A DNA stretch of 32,553 bases from Candidatus Nanosyncoccus alces. Lineage in GTDB: Bacteria; Patescibacteriota; Saccharimonadia; Saccharimonadales; Saccharimonadaceae. Made by a program: the position numbers and the translations under genes. Below the pieces are notes generated by a model. That model was not told where the DNA came from and searched no databases. It saw nothing but the letters and a program-made list of their open reading frames with translations. Location: NCBI RefSeq assembly GCF_004138395.1, contig NZ_PRLM01000005.1:1-32553 (forward strand), read 5' to 3'. Shown here in pieces: positions 27,095 through 32,549 of the stretch; within the stretch, counting starts at the first letter, position 1; each line of letters opens with the position of its first letter.

Positions 27095-27103
27095 TGATAT
27101 AAT
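27095..27103 (+). promoter_or_regulatory. Promoter of the DGR template RNA
   Basis: Extended -10 TGATATAAT on the plus strand, predicting a start near 27110. No translated start codon follows closely, which fits an untranslated template RNA. Confidence 0.6.
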
Positions 27104-27109
27104 ATAATT

Positions 27110-27560
27110 GGCAGCATAAAAGCACAATATTAATTATGATGCAACATCATATTCTTATTGGCCCATCTTGCCTTGCGGGGCTCAAGAGTCATGCTTCTTT
27201 CAAGAAGCTTACACCACGGGTAATTGTCTGATTTTACGGAATTTGGCAATTGTAAATGGCTCTCATACCCGTCTTATTATCAGCCGGTGGCCGCCGGCTT
27301 AAGTTGTGTCTTCGTCTATTCCGGCAACTGGAACGGTTCGTCGGCGAACAATCGTGGCAACAACGGGAACTATTGGTCCTCTACAGCCAACAATACGAAC
27401 AACGCTTACAATCTGAACTTCAACAATGGCAACGTCAATCCGGGTACGAACAACAACAATAAGAACAACGGGAACTCCGTACGCTGTCTAGCTCCTGCTG
27501 AGTAGTAGTTCGGCGTATCGCCCTTCCTACCTTTCGCTCCCCGTTTAACAAACTTGCTGC
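27110..27560 (+). ncRNA. DGR template RNA (region containing TR)
   Basis: The + strand transcript predicted from the promoter at 27095 covers an untranslated leader of about 200 nt, the TR at 27310-27533 and the segment up to the reverse transcriptase stop. The leader contains a small hairpin (GCTTCTT / AAGAAGC, 27193-27208). The TR is adenine-rich with many AAC triplets. The open frame over it (27224-27505) lacks ATG and a ribosome binding site and is best read as TR and not as a protein. End of the RNA not determinable from sequence. Confidence 0.75.
27310..27533 (+). repeat. DGR template repeat (TR)
   Basis: The first 82 bp (27310-27391) match the target gene's 30007-30088 at 76 positions. 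All six differences are TR adenines read as T in the target. A 114-bp part (27392-27505) is missing from the target, and 28 bp at the end (27506-27533) is identical to 29979-30006. That last block holds a GGCG-TAT-CGCC hairpin and corresponds to the initiation-of-mutagenic-homing (IMH) side. TR ends in tandem TAG codons. Confidence 0.93.
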
Positions 27561-27571
27561 CAAACCATGGA

Positions 27572-28732
27572 CTATATATTATATTCCCAGCCGATTTCCT
27601 GAAAGGCTTCTTCTAACATTTTGGTACTTTTAAGATATTTTGCATGACCCAAATATGAGGCGATGCTGTTTTCATCCCGAATCCCCATCATGACTTCTCG
27701 ACAAGCGATTTTGGTGTTTTTCTTTAATCTGCGCCCAGGCACAATGTGGTTGTTGTAAACTACTGCACCCAAAAACGGGATGCCTTTGCTAGATTCGGTT
27801 AACATACGTTTTTTGGGATGCAAGGTCAATTGTCTGAGTTTTAAGAATTCTTCAATTGCCCGAATATCTTTTTTGAGTTGTGGCAATTCTTCTTCACTGG
27901 CTACAATATAAAAATCATCTACATACCGGCCGTAATGTTTGTAGCCTAAGTCGTAAGTAACAAACCGATCTAATTGGTCTAAATATATGTTAGATAATAG
28001 CTGCGAAGTTAGATTGCCAATGACAATTCCCTTTCCGGCGGGTTGACCAAACAAGCTTTTGCTGGAAGGTAGCTCGTCCCATCCGCTGAGGCGACCTTTT
28101 TTGCGCACACCGTGAATGGGATCATCAAAAATTGTTTGGTACCACAAAAACCGCATTAATTCGTATTCCCTAGTGTCTTTTTTGCCAGCAAATTGTTGAT
28201 CTAACCCCCAAATTGCTTGTTCGTATAGTCTTTGGCGCGGTAAAGACATAAAATACCCTTGGATGTCTAGTTTTGCAACGTAGGCTTTTTTGGCGTAATT
28301 ATGTGAAACGGATCTGATATGGTAGTCGAGCCGACGTATACCAAACAAGGTGCCCTTCCCTACTCGACAAGAATAAGCGTCGGTGATAAATCTTTTGTCC
28401 CACCAGTCGTAAACTGTGTCAAAAATTAGGTGGTGCACCACCCGATCACGAAAAGTGGCAGCAAATATTTCACGAATTACCGGGTTATAAATAATATGAG
28501 CAGTGCTACGACTCGGACGGTAAGTTTTGGCTAAAATATCTTTGCGAAGTAATTTCAAGTTTTCGTCGGCGTTGAGCTCAAACATCTGTTCGTCCATGGT
28601 GGAGCGTTTGCCACCTCTTCTGGCTTCTAGGTATGCTATATATAAAGTAAGTTGTAGCCTATTTTCAAAATCCTTGAGCCATTCGATGGCATCTTGATCA
28701 AATCTGAGTTCTTTCAACTCGGTTTTCTCCAA
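27572..28732 (-). CDS. DGR reverse transcriptase
   Basis: 386 aa. RT motifs are in order: RPSRSTAHIIYNPVIREIFA and FRDRVVHHLIF near residues 72-104, KLDIQGYFMSLPR (154-166, first catalytic Asp), GIVIGNLTSQLLSNIYL (235-251), and YGRYVDDFYIVAS (267-279, the YVDD catalytic pair), then a FLGAVV thumb-side block. The IGNLTSQ form in place of group II intron QGxxxSP is characteristic of DGR enzymes. It copies the template RNA into cDNA with errors at adenines. It starts with TTG at 28732, overlapping the end of the accessory gene by 35 bp, so it is probably translationally coupled to it; no better start is visible before residue 46. No maturase or endonuclease domain is present. Confidence 0.93.
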   Translation of the reverse strand: MEKTELKELRFDQDAIEWLKDFENRLQLTLYIAYLEARRGGKRSTMDEQMFELNADENLKLLRKDILAKTYRPSRSTAHIIYNPVIREIFAATFRDRVVHHLIFDTVYDWWDKRFITDAYSCRVGKGTLFGIRRLDYHIRSVSHNYAKKAYVAKLDIQGYFMSLPRQRLYEQAIWGLDQQFAGKKDTREYELMRFLWYQTIFDDPIHGVRKKGRLSGWDELPSSKSLFGQPAGKGIVIGNLTSQLLSNIYLDQLDRFVTYDLGYKHYGRYVDDFYIVASEEELPQLKKDIRAIEEFLKLRQLTLHPKKRMLTESSKGIPFLGAVVYNNHIVPGRRLKKNTKIACREVMMGIRDENSIASYLGHAKYLKSTKMLEEAFQEIGWEYNI

Positions 28733-29804
28733 GTCTTTTTGCGATGATGGTTTTGAGGTCTACTAGTGTTTCGCCGATGCGAGTGCGAGTAACTAGGTCA
28801 AAAAGGGCGTTCTCGTCGATGATGGCAAGAAGGGCGGTGATATCGTCTATCTGGCATAACATTTCATCACGGGCCGTGGCTCGGCTGAGGTGACCATTTG
28901 CCATCCGGAAGTAAATTTTGTTTAAATTCATTAGCGAATCCAGCATGGTATTACCAAAGGTTTCACGATAGGCGCCGTCCATTTTTTTGATTTTGGGGGG
29001 TAAAATTTGAGACAGCTGCCTGATGAGGCCATAAAGATCAGGGAGATTTTCTTTGGGCGTAACCATTTTTTTGACTTTGGCTTGGTCGGTCTGTTCGCGT
29101 TGGCGCATTTCGTTGATTTCTTTGGTGCTATATGACCGTTCTAGATCGACGATAATAATGCCGTAATCTATCCGTTTGGCGACAAGACCGATAGTGGCGA
29201 CGTCTTCGATGAATTTTTCACCCCAGTGCACAGACACTATGCCGTGTTTAAACCGGTGGCGCAAATCGTTGTCGTTACGAATAACTGGTTTCTTTTTGAG
29301 TCTCGGGCCAATGACGTACTTATAGAACAAGGCTGATTGCCCGCCCATTTTGTACCACTCATCGGTGATGCCAGCTAAAGATGGGAACAATATAAGGCGA
29401 GAGTTATTTTTGTCCTCTAGGGTGAGGGCGATAACTTTGCCATTATAATAATCTCGGTGACGATCTTTATCTAGTTTGTCGCGCTCGTCTAGTTCTTTGC
29501 CGGATTGAGCTTCGACCAAGATGCCTTTGAGAATGCTAGTGGTAAATTCTTCACTGCCTTTGGCGATAGTTTGCTTATTCTTGGAACTGGTTTTGGGGTG
29601 AGATTGACTATTTTTTAAGTAACGGGAGCAGAAATTTTGAATAGTTTCTATGTTTTTTGTGCTAGGAGTAACCCTACCGTTGAGCCAAAAGCCTAAAGTT
29701 TTGGCGGATACGCCTAGCTTGCTGGCCGTATCAGCTTGCGACCATCCGGCACTTTGCATGATCTTTTTCAGGGTGTCTAATGCGACATTTGTCTCATTTG
29801 CCAT
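28698..29804 (-). CDS. HTH domain - unknown middle domain - Avd-like four-helix domain fusion
   Basis: 368 aa. Residues 8-55 form an XRE-type helix-turn-helix (SQADTASKLGVSAKTLGFWL). Residues 85-235 form an alpha/beta domain I do not recognise. Residues 255-358 are helical and Leu-rich with LPPKIKKMDGAYRETFGNTM and RIGETLVDLKTIIAKRLGEN, resembling the Avd accessory protein of DGRs, a four-helix bundle that binds the RT and template RNA. It sits directly upstream of the RT and overlaps it by 35 bp, the expected Avd location. The promoter TGCTACAAT (29812-29820) ends 7 nt before the ATG. The HTH could regulate the operon or bring the complex to DNA; this is inference. Confidence 0.72.
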   Translation of the reverse strand: MANETNVALDTLKKIMQSAGWSQADTASKLGVSAKTLGFWLNGRVTPSTKNIETIQNFCSRYLKNSQSHPKTSSKNKQTIAKGSEEFTTSILKGILVEAQSGKELDERDKLDKDRHRDYYNGKVIALTLEDKNNSRLILFPSLAGITDEWYKMGGQSALFYKYVIGPRLKKKPVIRNDNDLRHRFKHGIVSVHWGEKFIEDVATIGLVAKRIDYGIIIVDLERSYSTKEINEMRQREQTDQAKVKKMVTPKENLPDLYGLIRQLSQILPPKIKKMDGAYRETFGNTMLDSLMNLNKIYFRMANGHLSRATARDEMLCQIDDITALLAIIDENALFDLVTRTRIGETLVDLKTIIAKRLGENRVERTQI

Positions 29805-29811
29805 TGCTGAT

Positions 29812-29820
29812 ATTGTAGCA
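29812..29820 (-). promoter_or_regulatory. Extended -10 of the accessory-RT operon
   Basis: TGCTACAAT on the minus strand, 7 nt before ATG 29804. Confidence 0.6.
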
Positions 29821-29867
29821 CACCTATTTTTGGCGAAAAAGTAGTTATGTTTATTTGACAGTCTTCT

Positions 29868-29895
29868 GATTTCTGGCGCTATGGCGCCAGAAATC
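29868..29895 (-). terminator. Second hairpin downstream of the target gene
   Basis: GATTTCTGGCGC / GCGCCAGAAATC, a 12-bp perfect stem with a 4-nt loop, without a strong T-run. It lies downstream of the VR, where DGRs often have a hairpin or cruciform important for homing. Confidence 0.55.
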
Positions 29896-29898
29896 TAG

Positions 29899-29966
29899 GC
29901 AAAAAAGGAACCTCCATTTCCGCCTAGATGCCTTGCATCTAGGGGAAACGAAAGTTCCTTTTTTGC
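29899..29966 (-). terminator. Large nested hairpin downstream of the target gene
   Basis: Outer stem GCAAAAAAGGAAC / GTTCCTTTTTTGC (13 bp, 29899-29911 and 29954-29966) encloses an inner stem CCTAGATGC / GCATCTAGG (9 bp, 29923-29943) with a 3-nt loop. The T-rich outer arm would give a terminator in either direction. Confidence 0.7.
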
Positions 29967-29978
29967 ATTCCCGGGGCT

Positions 29979-30088
29979 AAGGTAGGAAGGGCGATACGCC
30001 GAACTAGTTGGCTGTAGAGGACCAATAGTACCCGTAGTAGCCACGATTGTACGCCGACGAACCGTACCAGTAGCCGGAATAGACGAAG
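29979..30088 (-). repeat. DGR variable repeat (VR) at the C-terminus of the target gene
   Basis: 30007-30088 corresponds to TR 27310-27391 and codes for the last residues of the target, SGYWYGSSAYNRGYYGYYW followed by SSTAN. 29979-30006 is identical to TR 27506-27533 and includes the target stop. The 114 bp between these two parts in TR is absent. Six TR adenines are T here, each changing Asn to Tyr; no other differences occur. Confidence 0.93.
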
Positions 30089-32022
30089 TTATTTGGGAAG
30101 GAGCGCCAGTTATTGGAGTCTGTGGAGGAAGTGTTACCGCCCATTTGTTGGTTAAGGTAGTAGAAGCCTCCGTTGGTGTTACCTTTGTTGTTACCTTCAC
30201 TGCCATCTCCACTACCACCATATGGGAGTTGCCAGCCAGCTGGGCAGAGATCACCTTCTACGGTGACATTAGAGTCAGTTTCTTGTTTACCGTTACCTGC
30301 TGTGGCGGAGTACCAGTTGTAGTTATTACCATAAGAGTACCATTGGGCATTATCACCACTTGCATTATAGCTAGCTGTAAGATCGGTGTTTCCTAGATCG
30401 GAGTTATTAGTGTTAATGATGGACTGATCATAACAAGCTGCTTGGTCCCAATCCGTGCACCAGTTATTAGATGAAGCAGATAGGCGGTTAGAAGTGGTTT
30501 GTGCAGAATAATCATTGGTGAGAGGAAGAGATGGGTGGTTAGTGTTAGTAGTGGATAGTTCTTGAGTAGTTGGGGTATCACCTTCAGCCACTGAGTTATC
30601 TAGTCTTAAGTTTTCAGTCATCCAGCAGTTGCCATCGGCTAGTTTAGCAATGGTGTAGACTTCACCATCACGGGAATCAGTGAGAGCAGTGATAGTGTTT
30701 TTACCTACTGTGAGGACACCGTCTTCATAGGTGGTAGCAGTCATAGCACTACAGCCAGTCCAGTTTTGGAGATAGACAGGATCATTGCCGTTCATTTCAG
30801 CTGGGGCCCAGACAGCGTAGAGGGTGGAAGTATTGGTGGTGCTGTCTATTCCTTTTACTATAGTACCGTCCACAATAATAGTTTGGTTAGGACCATAGAT
30901 CTTTGGATCGTTAGATTCATCATTATCTGTGAGGTGGGTCCAAGCATCATTGTCTGCACTCCAACCTACGAAGCCATAGCCAGTCTTTTTGTAATTAGGA
31001 GCGTAAAGGCTAGCGGTATCACCAAGTAGGACATCGGAATGGCTTAAGGTTTCAGTTTGTTCACTCTCGGTGGATTCCATGCTACCGGTAGCACCATTGC
31101 CGTTGTAGCTAATGTTAAATGGAGTAGTAGAGCGCCAGATGGCATAGAGAGTGATGTTGCCACCTTCGCTAATGGTGAAAGTGTTAGGGTTTAAGAGATC
31201 GTTTACCGTAGTGTATGTAGCAGCACCAGCATTTGGATCCGTGCTCCAACCAAGGAATTCATAGTCTTCAGTTTCAGTGGTGGCTGGAGTTTCGTATTCG
31301 CCAGAAAAGATCTCATTATTGTTATAACCTGTGATTTTGGCGTAATAACCGTAGCCAGAGCTACAACCTCTTGAACTACCGCCAGCACCAACATGGTAGG
31401 CCAACGTGAGACTATCTCCATCTATATTAGTCTCTAAACTTTCATTAGTGGCATACATGCCAAAAACGTATTTACCTGTAGTATTACCGAAAACTTTCAC
31501 GCCTTCAGAATAATTATCTGCAGCCGTGTAGTTGGGTTTTTCGCCAATCCAAAAGCTAAAATAAGCATCATCATTTTCGCTTACACCACAGCTATCGCTG
31601 CCAGTCTTCACGAGGTCTAAGTAAATATTTTGCATATTGGCAAACTTATAGACAAATGTTTCACTCGTGTTTATCGGGTACATACGGTTATTCTGGTCTA
31701 TAACTTCCCCTGCGTCATTTAAGTTAGTGGTATGTGAGTACATAGTTTCGCCTAAGCTTCCCGCCACATACTTCACCACATTAGTGGTCTGCTCTTCATC
31801 ACCATCAAAGTATAGACCATTCCCATCAAAGGTTACAGTAGCTACAGCATTCTCTTCTGCACTATAATCTACTGTAGCACCAGTATAGGTACCATAAGGA
31901 AGGTCAGATTCTGGAAGAGAGTAGAAGATTTCATTGTCTTTAGCTTCTGGTTCTTCAGTAGCTAAGCCCCAAGTGTTATCAGAAAGAGCAGAAGTGGCTG
32001 CTTCTTCTGATAGAGTAATCAT
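30004..32022 (-). CDS. DGR target surface protein, main part (frameshifted from its N-terminus)
   Basis: 672 aa from the first in-frame ATG, but the frame is open up to the G-run at 32210-32217. Adding one base there joins it to the 32193-32549 part as one frame of exactly 848 aa. The order is a Thr/Ser/Glu-rich region with beta-strand character, two repeats of the InlB/Flg_new type ending FLGWSTDPNAG...ITLYAIW and GFVGWSADNDAW...TLYAVW, then a FISUMP-like (Fibrobacter succinogenes major paralogous) domain: DSRDGEVYTIAKLADGNCWM, TENLRLDN, NWYSATAGNGK and LCPAGWQLPYGG. This is a C-type-lectin-like fold used by many DGR targets. It ends early, at YWSSTAN, missing the 38 codons TR would supply. 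Likely a surface adhesin with a diversified binding end. Confidence 0.85.
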   Translation of the reverse strand: MITLSEEAATSALSDNTWGLATEEPEAKDNEIFYSLPESDLPYGTYTGATVDYSAEENAVATVTFDGNGLYFDGDEEQTTNVVKYVAGSLGETMYSHTTNLNDAGEVIDQNNRMYPINTSETFVYKFANMQNIYLDLVKTGSDSCGVSENDDAYFSFWIGEKPNYTAADNYSEGVKVFGNTTGKYVFGMYATNESLETNIDGDSLTLAYHVGAGGSSRGCSSGYGYYAKITGYNNNEIFSGEYETPATTETEDYEFLGWSTDPNAGAATYTTVNDLLNPNTFTISEGGNITLYAIWRSTTPFNISYNGNGATGSMESTESEQTETLSHSDVLLGDTASLYAPNYKKTGYGFVGWSADNDAWTHLTDNDESNDPKIYGPNQTIIVDGTIVKGIDSTTNTSTLYAVWAPAEMNGNDPVYLQNWTGCSAMTATTYEDGVLTVGKNTITALTDSRDGEVYTIAKLADGNCWMTENLRLDNSVAEGDTPTTQELSTTNTNHPSLPLTNDYSAQTTSNRLSASSNNWCTDWDQAACYDQSIINTNNSDLGNTDLTASYNASGDNAQWYSYGNNYNWYSATAGNGKQETDSNVTVEGDLCPAGWQLPYGGSGDGSEGNNKGNTNGGFYYLNQQMGGNTSSTDSNNWRSFPNNFVYSGYWYGSSAYNRGYYGYYWSSTAN

Positions 32023-32192
32023 AGAGATGGTTTTATCGGTTTCAGTAGAAGAAAGAGTAGTGTCTTCAGCGTGAGCTTTGAGTGTATAGCCAGCTTGTGT
32101 AGCTTCTGCTACAGTGAGGGTGACTGGTGCTACAGCGAAGACTGGTTCATCAGCTAGTTCTACGTCTAGGACTACGTCGGAGACGGTAAGAT

Positions 32193-32549
32193 CTAGGCTA
32201 GTATTGGTACCCCCCCCTCGGCAGCATTAGCAGTGCCTAGGTTGGAGTGGTGCTTAAGACCTGCAAAGGTGAAAGCAGAAGTGAGAAGAGCAATGATGGA
32301 AAGACCAATGGTAAATTGCTTTTTCGCTTGCTTTAGTTTGAAGGCTTTAATACTACTAGTGAATCTAGGTAGTTTGTGATGTTTGCGGTAGTAGTAGGCT
32401 AGACTGATGATACTAGCTACTAGGATGAATGATACTATGCTGATAGTGGCAATAGTGCCGCCATCTAGACCTTGGCTGAATAGACCTGTGTTAGGAGTAA
32501 CAGGACTGCCAGGTTCTACTATGTTTATTATGATATTGCTATCGCTCAT
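32193..32549 (-). CDS. DGR target surface protein, N-terminal part
   Basis: 118 aa as read. Residues 31-53 are a membrane segment (IATISIVSFILVASIISLAY), followed by a basic loop (YYRKHHKLPRF ... KAFKLKQAKKQF), a second membrane segment at about 79-97 (FTIGLSIIALLTSAFTFAGL), and a GTANAAEGG region that could be a signal-peptidase-type cleavage site. The reading frame leaves the main protein at the run of eight G and ends 11 bp later. One extra G would continue into the main part (GGGTNTSLDLTVSDVV). This arrangement would tether or export the DGR target. Its first 20 residues and DNA are the same as at the start of the window. Confidence 0.82.
   Translation of the reverse strand: MSDSNIIINIVEPGSPVTPNTGLFSQGLDGGTIATISIVSFILVASIISLAYYYRKHHKLPRFTSSIKAFKLKQAKKQFTIGLSIIALLTSAFTFAGLKHHSNLGTANAAEGGVPILA
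32210..32217 (-). repeat. Run of eight G (coding strand) at a frameshift in the target gene
   Basis: Eight C on the plus strand, between GTA and TCG. Nine (or six) would put the N-terminus and main part in one frame; eight breaks it. Either a slip-prone phase-variation tract or an assembly or sequencing error. Confidence 0.75.

Follow-up and report, generated by a model that had tools for sequence, protein, structure and literature searches.

An all-tyrosine variable repeat, lacking 114 nucleotides of its template in the assembly, in a chromosomal diversity-generating retroelement of Saccharibacteria

Introduction

At the right end of a Saccharibacteria contig, a template repeat (TR) and a variable repeat (VR) are separated by six substitutions, every one of which exchanges asparagine for tyrosine. 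The preliminary description of this DNA read the locus as a complete diversity-generating retroelement (DGR), regarded the all-Tyr outcome as exceptional, and proposed either selection for a Tyr-rich binding face or a biased enzyme. This raises the question of whether so uniform an outcome calls for special selection, and in what state the element is found. We refer to the whole stretch of DNA analyzed as the window; it comprises the entire contig C5 (32,553 bases) of a genome of 726,940 bases that is 98% complete.

Materials and Methods

For comparison, 120 reverse transcriptase (RT) loci were extracted from genomes of the same genus, in which 95 of 174 genomes carried an RT homologue. TR/VR pairs were found by self-comparison and were kept if at least 75% of their mismatches fell at TR adenines. 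This gave 102 pairs in 101 loci; the window pair was left out, and the second DGR of its genome (L047) was included. The adenine and codon frequencies given below refer to these 102 pairs.

Results

The locus is a chromosomal DGR

The right end of C5 carries the TR on the plus strand, followed by the RT gene, an accessory ORF, the VR and the target gene, all on the minus strand. The features, in window coordinates, are as follows.

27310–27533, plus strand: TR, 224 nt including IMH*, matching the VR in blocks of 82 and 28 nt
27392–27505, plus strand: TR part without a VR counterpart, 114 nt (38 codons); in the VR, the blocks on either side of it meet at 30006/30007
27506–27533, plus strand: IMH*-like 3' end of the TR, 28/28 bases identical to 30006–29979
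27572–28732, minus strand: DGR RT, 386 aa (PF00078), best PDB match the BPP-1 DGR RT
28698–29804, minus strand: accessory protein, 368 aa, with an N-terminal HTH, a middle alpha/beta part and a predicted C-terminal Avd-like four-helix bundle (residues 251–366)
29868–29895, minus strand: candidate DGR target hairpin, an inverted repeat with a 12-bp stem and a 4-nt loop, 83 bp beyond the VR
29979–30088, minus strand: VR, 110 nt, consisting of 82 nt with six A-to-T changes and the 28-nt IMH
30004–32549, minus strand: target gene, with a truncated C-terminal lectin-like (FISUMP/Lcl_C-like) domain; the contig ends at 32553
32210–32217, minus strand: eight-G tract in the 5' part of the target gene; another tract length would join both ORFs

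The best PDB match of the RT was the BPP-1 DGR RT (8ub7, E = 1.6e-21), and its translation carries IGNLTSQ and YVDD, corresponding to the [I/V/L]GxxxSQ and YxDD of the DGR lineage; IGNxxSQ/YVDD was present in nearly all RT relatives. The reading frames of the RT and the accessory protein are intact. The accessory N-terminus was identified as HTH_3 by sequence. In the AlphaFold model of this protein (pLDDT 89), the first Foldseek hit of the four-helix bundle in the PDB was Bordetella Avd (4dwl, TM 0.83 by target), and the VIA Z values were 14.5 to Avd and 16.4 to Xcc0516 (2gsc), which has been named as a representative of the Avd-like family PF05635 (PMC10053308). No sequence match to PF05635 was found in the accessory protein. 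Judging by the fold of the predicted model and the position beside a DGR RT, we regard the protein as Avd-like; the position counts in this argument because the Foldseek E-values were weak and helical bundles match easily. A homologue was present at 94 of the 120 RT loci of the genus, and the accessory profile, when searched in 240 genomes sampled across the phylum, was found in only two, both of this genus and one of them the window's own. The fusion of an HTH and an alpha/beta part to the Avd-like bundle is a further observation. A MutS_I (MSL) identity for the middle part was considered, but no sequence match was found, and in the fold search the hits went to the helical bundle.

Because the RT, the Avd-like accessory protein, the TR, the VR and the target gene are all present and the RT is nearest to that of the BPP-1 DGR, the locus is a genuine chromosomal DGR of a Saccharibacteria genome, and the preliminary call of a DGR was borne out by the RT match and motif, the Avd-like fold and the adenine mismatches between TR and VR. 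The element itself is ordinary for the genus, with RT homologues in 95 of 174 genomes. In 75 of the 102 pairs, as in the window, the RT gene was followed downstream by a TR on the opposite strand and preceded by a VR on its own strand. The same TR or IMH was not found in viral contigs.

The same genome has a second DGR (L047, G000:C6:206901-226900), whose RT (C6:216354-217433) is 55% identical to that of the window. It comes with an accessory homologue, a target whose N-terminal part is quite different, and a TR/VR pair in which A-to-G changes, not A-to-T changes, abound.

Substitutions between the TR and the VR

TR 27310–27391 (plus strand) and VR 30088–30007 (minus strand) were identical at 76 of 82 nt. 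The six differences, at 27326, 27332, 27347, 27359, 27362 and 27368, were all A to T; each affected the first adenine in an AAC codon and changed Asn to Tyr. There are 20 adenines in this TR stretch, and the probability that six random differences would all land on them is 1.1e-4; over the whole 110 aligned nt, no change was found outside TR adenines. All details of the earlier 82-nt comparison (the six sites, their positions, the 20 adenines and the codon reading) proved exact. The accompanying statement that the changes are strictly A to T holds for the first 82 nt of the TR only, because TR–VR homology resumes further on: the TR is 224 nt long, a size like that of the relatives' TRs (e.g., 222 nt in L048), and the VR is incomplete. 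No second VR copy was found in the genome; a hit at C6:230989 was considered as a further VR and rejected as unrelated.

The VR lacks 114 nt and the target domain is truncated

Since TR 27506–27533 is identical to 30006–29979 (28/28), which directly abuts the 82-nt block, the VR is without TR 27392–27505. Homology seems to stop at the end of the 82-nt block, where the earlier comparison ended for that reason, but it continues after a further 114 nt of the TR and, in the VR, with the very next base. The VR junction reads ...TCT ACA GCC AAC TAG TTC GGC... and is in frame with a stop codon, namely the second of two tandem TAG stops in the TR, with which the IMH*-like segment begins. No microhomology was found at the junction, nor any RNA hairpin joining the deletion endpoints; a TR RNA hairpin as the cause of these endpoints was rejected, as the TR folds less stably than shuffled sequences (z = +2.1). 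No similar deletion was found in the 102 other genus pairs, where a VR misses at most 2 nt of TR sequence in the part that aligns. The element was therefore wrongly described as complete, as its VR is 114 nt short and the domain meant to bear the Tyr face is truncated.

The VR sits at the end of the target gene. The target ends of relatives matched PF09603 in 43 of 46 cases, and the relatives' domain gave a Z of 5.7 against Lcl_C (8q4e), whereas the window's own domain is truncated; a Foldseek search with the target-domain fold gave no significant hit. In the domain model of L048, strands 216–222, 226–235 and 239–241 fall past the end of the window's target, and the invariant residues G239, R243 and C244, all three encoded by the TR, have no counterpart in it. 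The truncation would thus remove three predicted beta strands and three invariant residues of the lectin-like domain, and because of these losses this VR allele is probably non-functional. However, 82 nt of upstream homology and the 28-nt IMH are retained, so the intact TR could restore a full-length VR at the next retrohoming. We consider that the odder fact of this locus is not the all-Tyr pattern but a half-deleted VR with both ends kept.

In relatives, 39 of 102 VRs had an inverted repeat like the candidate hairpin in the 150 bp beyond them, compared with 12 of 101 TRs. The window's hairpin differs from those of phage DGRs in having the loop CATA rather than GRNA, and its distance of 83 bp exceeds their 4–34 bp.

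The target frame is broken at the G8 tract, between a 118-aa ORF (32193–32549) and the ORF at 30004–32022, in a manner that resembles phase-variable genes or a homopolymer error. G tracts of 7–13 near DGR target gene starts were found 6 times in 67 relatives (L079, L096, L128, L140, L160 and L163), against 0.5 expected (P = 1.2e-5). Additionally, elsewhere in the window's genome, G tracts of 9–10 stand directly before TATAAT at L177 (G000:C3:115666), L186 (G000:C2:94986) and L178 (G000:C6:189311); two of them have TTGACA or TTGACT upstream, so they lie in promoter spacers, a layout known from phase-variable promoters. A search of this genome for MutS_I gave no match.

Outcomes at AAC codons across the genus

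We analyzed how TR adenines were changed in the genus as a whole. Overall, 36% of them were changed, to G in 45.5%, T in 41.6% and C in 12.9% of cases. The first A of AAC was changed in 69%, and T accounted for 57% of these changes. Contexts other than AAC mainly gave G (ACN and ATN favored G), and an A before G was almost never changed. Tyr was the commonest outcome among 1,433 AAC codons (498, or 35%), followed by unchanged AAC (16%), AGC (Ser, 12%) and GGC (Gly, 10%). Of the changed codons, 498 of 1,197 (42%) gave Tyr at AAC, compared with 68 of 286 (24%) at AAT (P = 1.5e-8). The Tyr share also varied between loci more than expected by chance (P = 0.001). The two adenines of AAC behaved in a coupled manner: when the second became G, the first was T in 1 of 379 codons, and when the second was unchanged, the first was T in 60%. 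Cys and His were rare in the VRs of the genus, and Cys was nearly absent at AAC (TGC in 1 of 1,433 codons), which may reflect selection or coupled misincorporation.

At the genus-average Tyr probability, six of six Tyr in one element has a probability of 0.416^6 = 0.005. Runs of at least six consecutive Tyr among changed AAC codons were found in 4 of the 102 pairs, where a mean of 2.3 (95% range 0–6) was expected. Such an outcome is uncommon for any one element but expected somewhere among a hundred, and this element was chosen for that very feature. With Tyr the commonest AAC outcome genus-wide and such runs in 4 of 102 pairs, the all-Tyr VR cannot be called exceptional.

Discussion

Taken together, we consider it probable that the locus is a chromosomal DGR with an enzymatic preference for turning AAC into a Tyr codon and a truncated but restorable VR. 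By the established DGR mechanism, the RT and its Avd-like partner would copy the TR RNA and misread adenines, and the cDNA would then replace the VR of the target gene. The enzyme lineage would favor A opposite the first A of AAC, and because this gives TAC, runs of Tyr would be a common outcome. The present allele would carry six such changes together with the loss of 114 nt that truncates the lectin-like domain, and the next retrohoming from the intact TR could install a full-length VR. This account starts from direct observations: the repeats with their A-only changes, the assignments of the RT and the Avd-like protein, the absence of 114 nt from the assembled VR, and the preference for Tyr at AAC throughout the genus. 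The activity of this particular element, the loss of target function and the possibility of repair, on the other hand, are things that we infer. Elsewhere in the genus, the TRs are 99% identical in L077/L079 and in L112/L116, and their VRs differ at 26 and 27 sites, respectively, 24 of them at TR adenines in each case; DGRs of this lineage therefore work in nature.

We judge it improbable that the six Tyr arose through selection for a Tyr-rich binding face and not through the enzyme. Tyr is indeed prominent in VRs throughout the genus, where Cys and His are rare, and its share differs between loci beyond chance. However, the residues accessible from AAC and from AAT are the same, and still Tyr makes up a larger share of the changed codons at AAC, as described above. 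This difference points to the context bias measured for the BPP-1 RT, which in E. coli misincorporated A more often at the first A of AAC, though not of AAU (PMC12875486), an effect seen without selection. Furthermore, the six-Tyr allele encodes a truncated domain, which is an odd object for binding selection. The excess of Tyr does not show the enzyme's profile alone, because genomic VRs have already been filtered by selection, and AAC and AAT codons also occur at different positions. Of the two explanations first offered, the biased enzyme thus gains support, as a context effect at AAC that is genus-wide and not specific to this element; special selection for a Tyr face is not needed, with 4 runs observed against 2.3 expected. 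Selection is a possible contributor, yet it is not required for this allele. The surprise of the all-Tyr VR has a known explanation that is independently supported in the genus.

As for the deletion, the main alternative is an assembly artefact, with a full-length VR present in the organism itself. Repeats as variable as VRs are difficult to assemble, the end of the contig is 2.5 kb away, only this one of 103 pairs shows the deletion, and the target gene also has a homopolymer frame break. Nevertheless, with zero microhomology there is no junction repeat that could mislead an assembler, and the reading frame continues across the junction into a stop codon; we regard an artefact as somewhat unlikely. 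The assembled target has two lesions, a frame break at G8 and a deletion in the VR, and no other VR was found in the genome; this could instead mean that the element is decaying, the target being a pseudogene and the DGR no longer working. This is quite unlikely, given that the RT and accessory frames are intact and that, in the 110 nt that align, TR adenines are the only changed sites, which argues for little drift since the last event. One may further speculate that reversible lesions turn the DGR target off and on: retrohoming would sometimes install an internally deleted VR that is later replaced from the intact TR, and slippage at the G tract in the 5' coding region would serve as another switch. 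A single surface protein would then be subject both to diversification and to phase variation; we hold this scheme to be very doubtful.

The roughly one hundred DGRs compared here are far from Bordetella and provide a natural test of the 2026 laboratory finding. Because in these DGRs too the first A of AAC mainly became T and AAC exceeded AAT for Tyr, the Tyr-favoring AAC context effect looks like something that DGR RTs have in common.

Among known systems, the DGR of Bordetella phage BPP-1 (brt, avd, TR, and VR in mtd) shares with the window the RT family, the Avd-like fold, the A-only changes, the IMH at the VR end and the change of the first A of AAC mainly to T. The window differs in being chromosomal, in having the TR on the strand opposite the RT, in the fusion of the Avd-like part to an HTH and alpha/beta region, in its FISUMP-like target and in the 114-nt deletion of its VR. 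An enrichment of DGRs is known for CPR (Roux et al., 2021, PMC8144416), and the clade 2 DGRs of Patescibacteria/CPR are, like that of the window, cellular DGRs of the same phylum. Targets of clade 2 CPR DGRs are usually without recognizable domains (Roux et al., 2021, PMC8144416), whereas those of the window's relatives match PF09603 in 43 of 46 cases. The closest parallel to the truncated VR is the BPP-1 deletion reporter, in which the target likewise lacks a stretch that the TR supplies and keeps its flanks, and which the reconstituted DGR restores (PMC12875486). The reporter is a laboratory construct missing 18 nt, whereas the window holds a natural allele missing 114 nt whose repair we infer by analogy; this truncated, apparently restorable VR may be seen as a natural counterpart of the deletion reporters used for measuring retrohoming.
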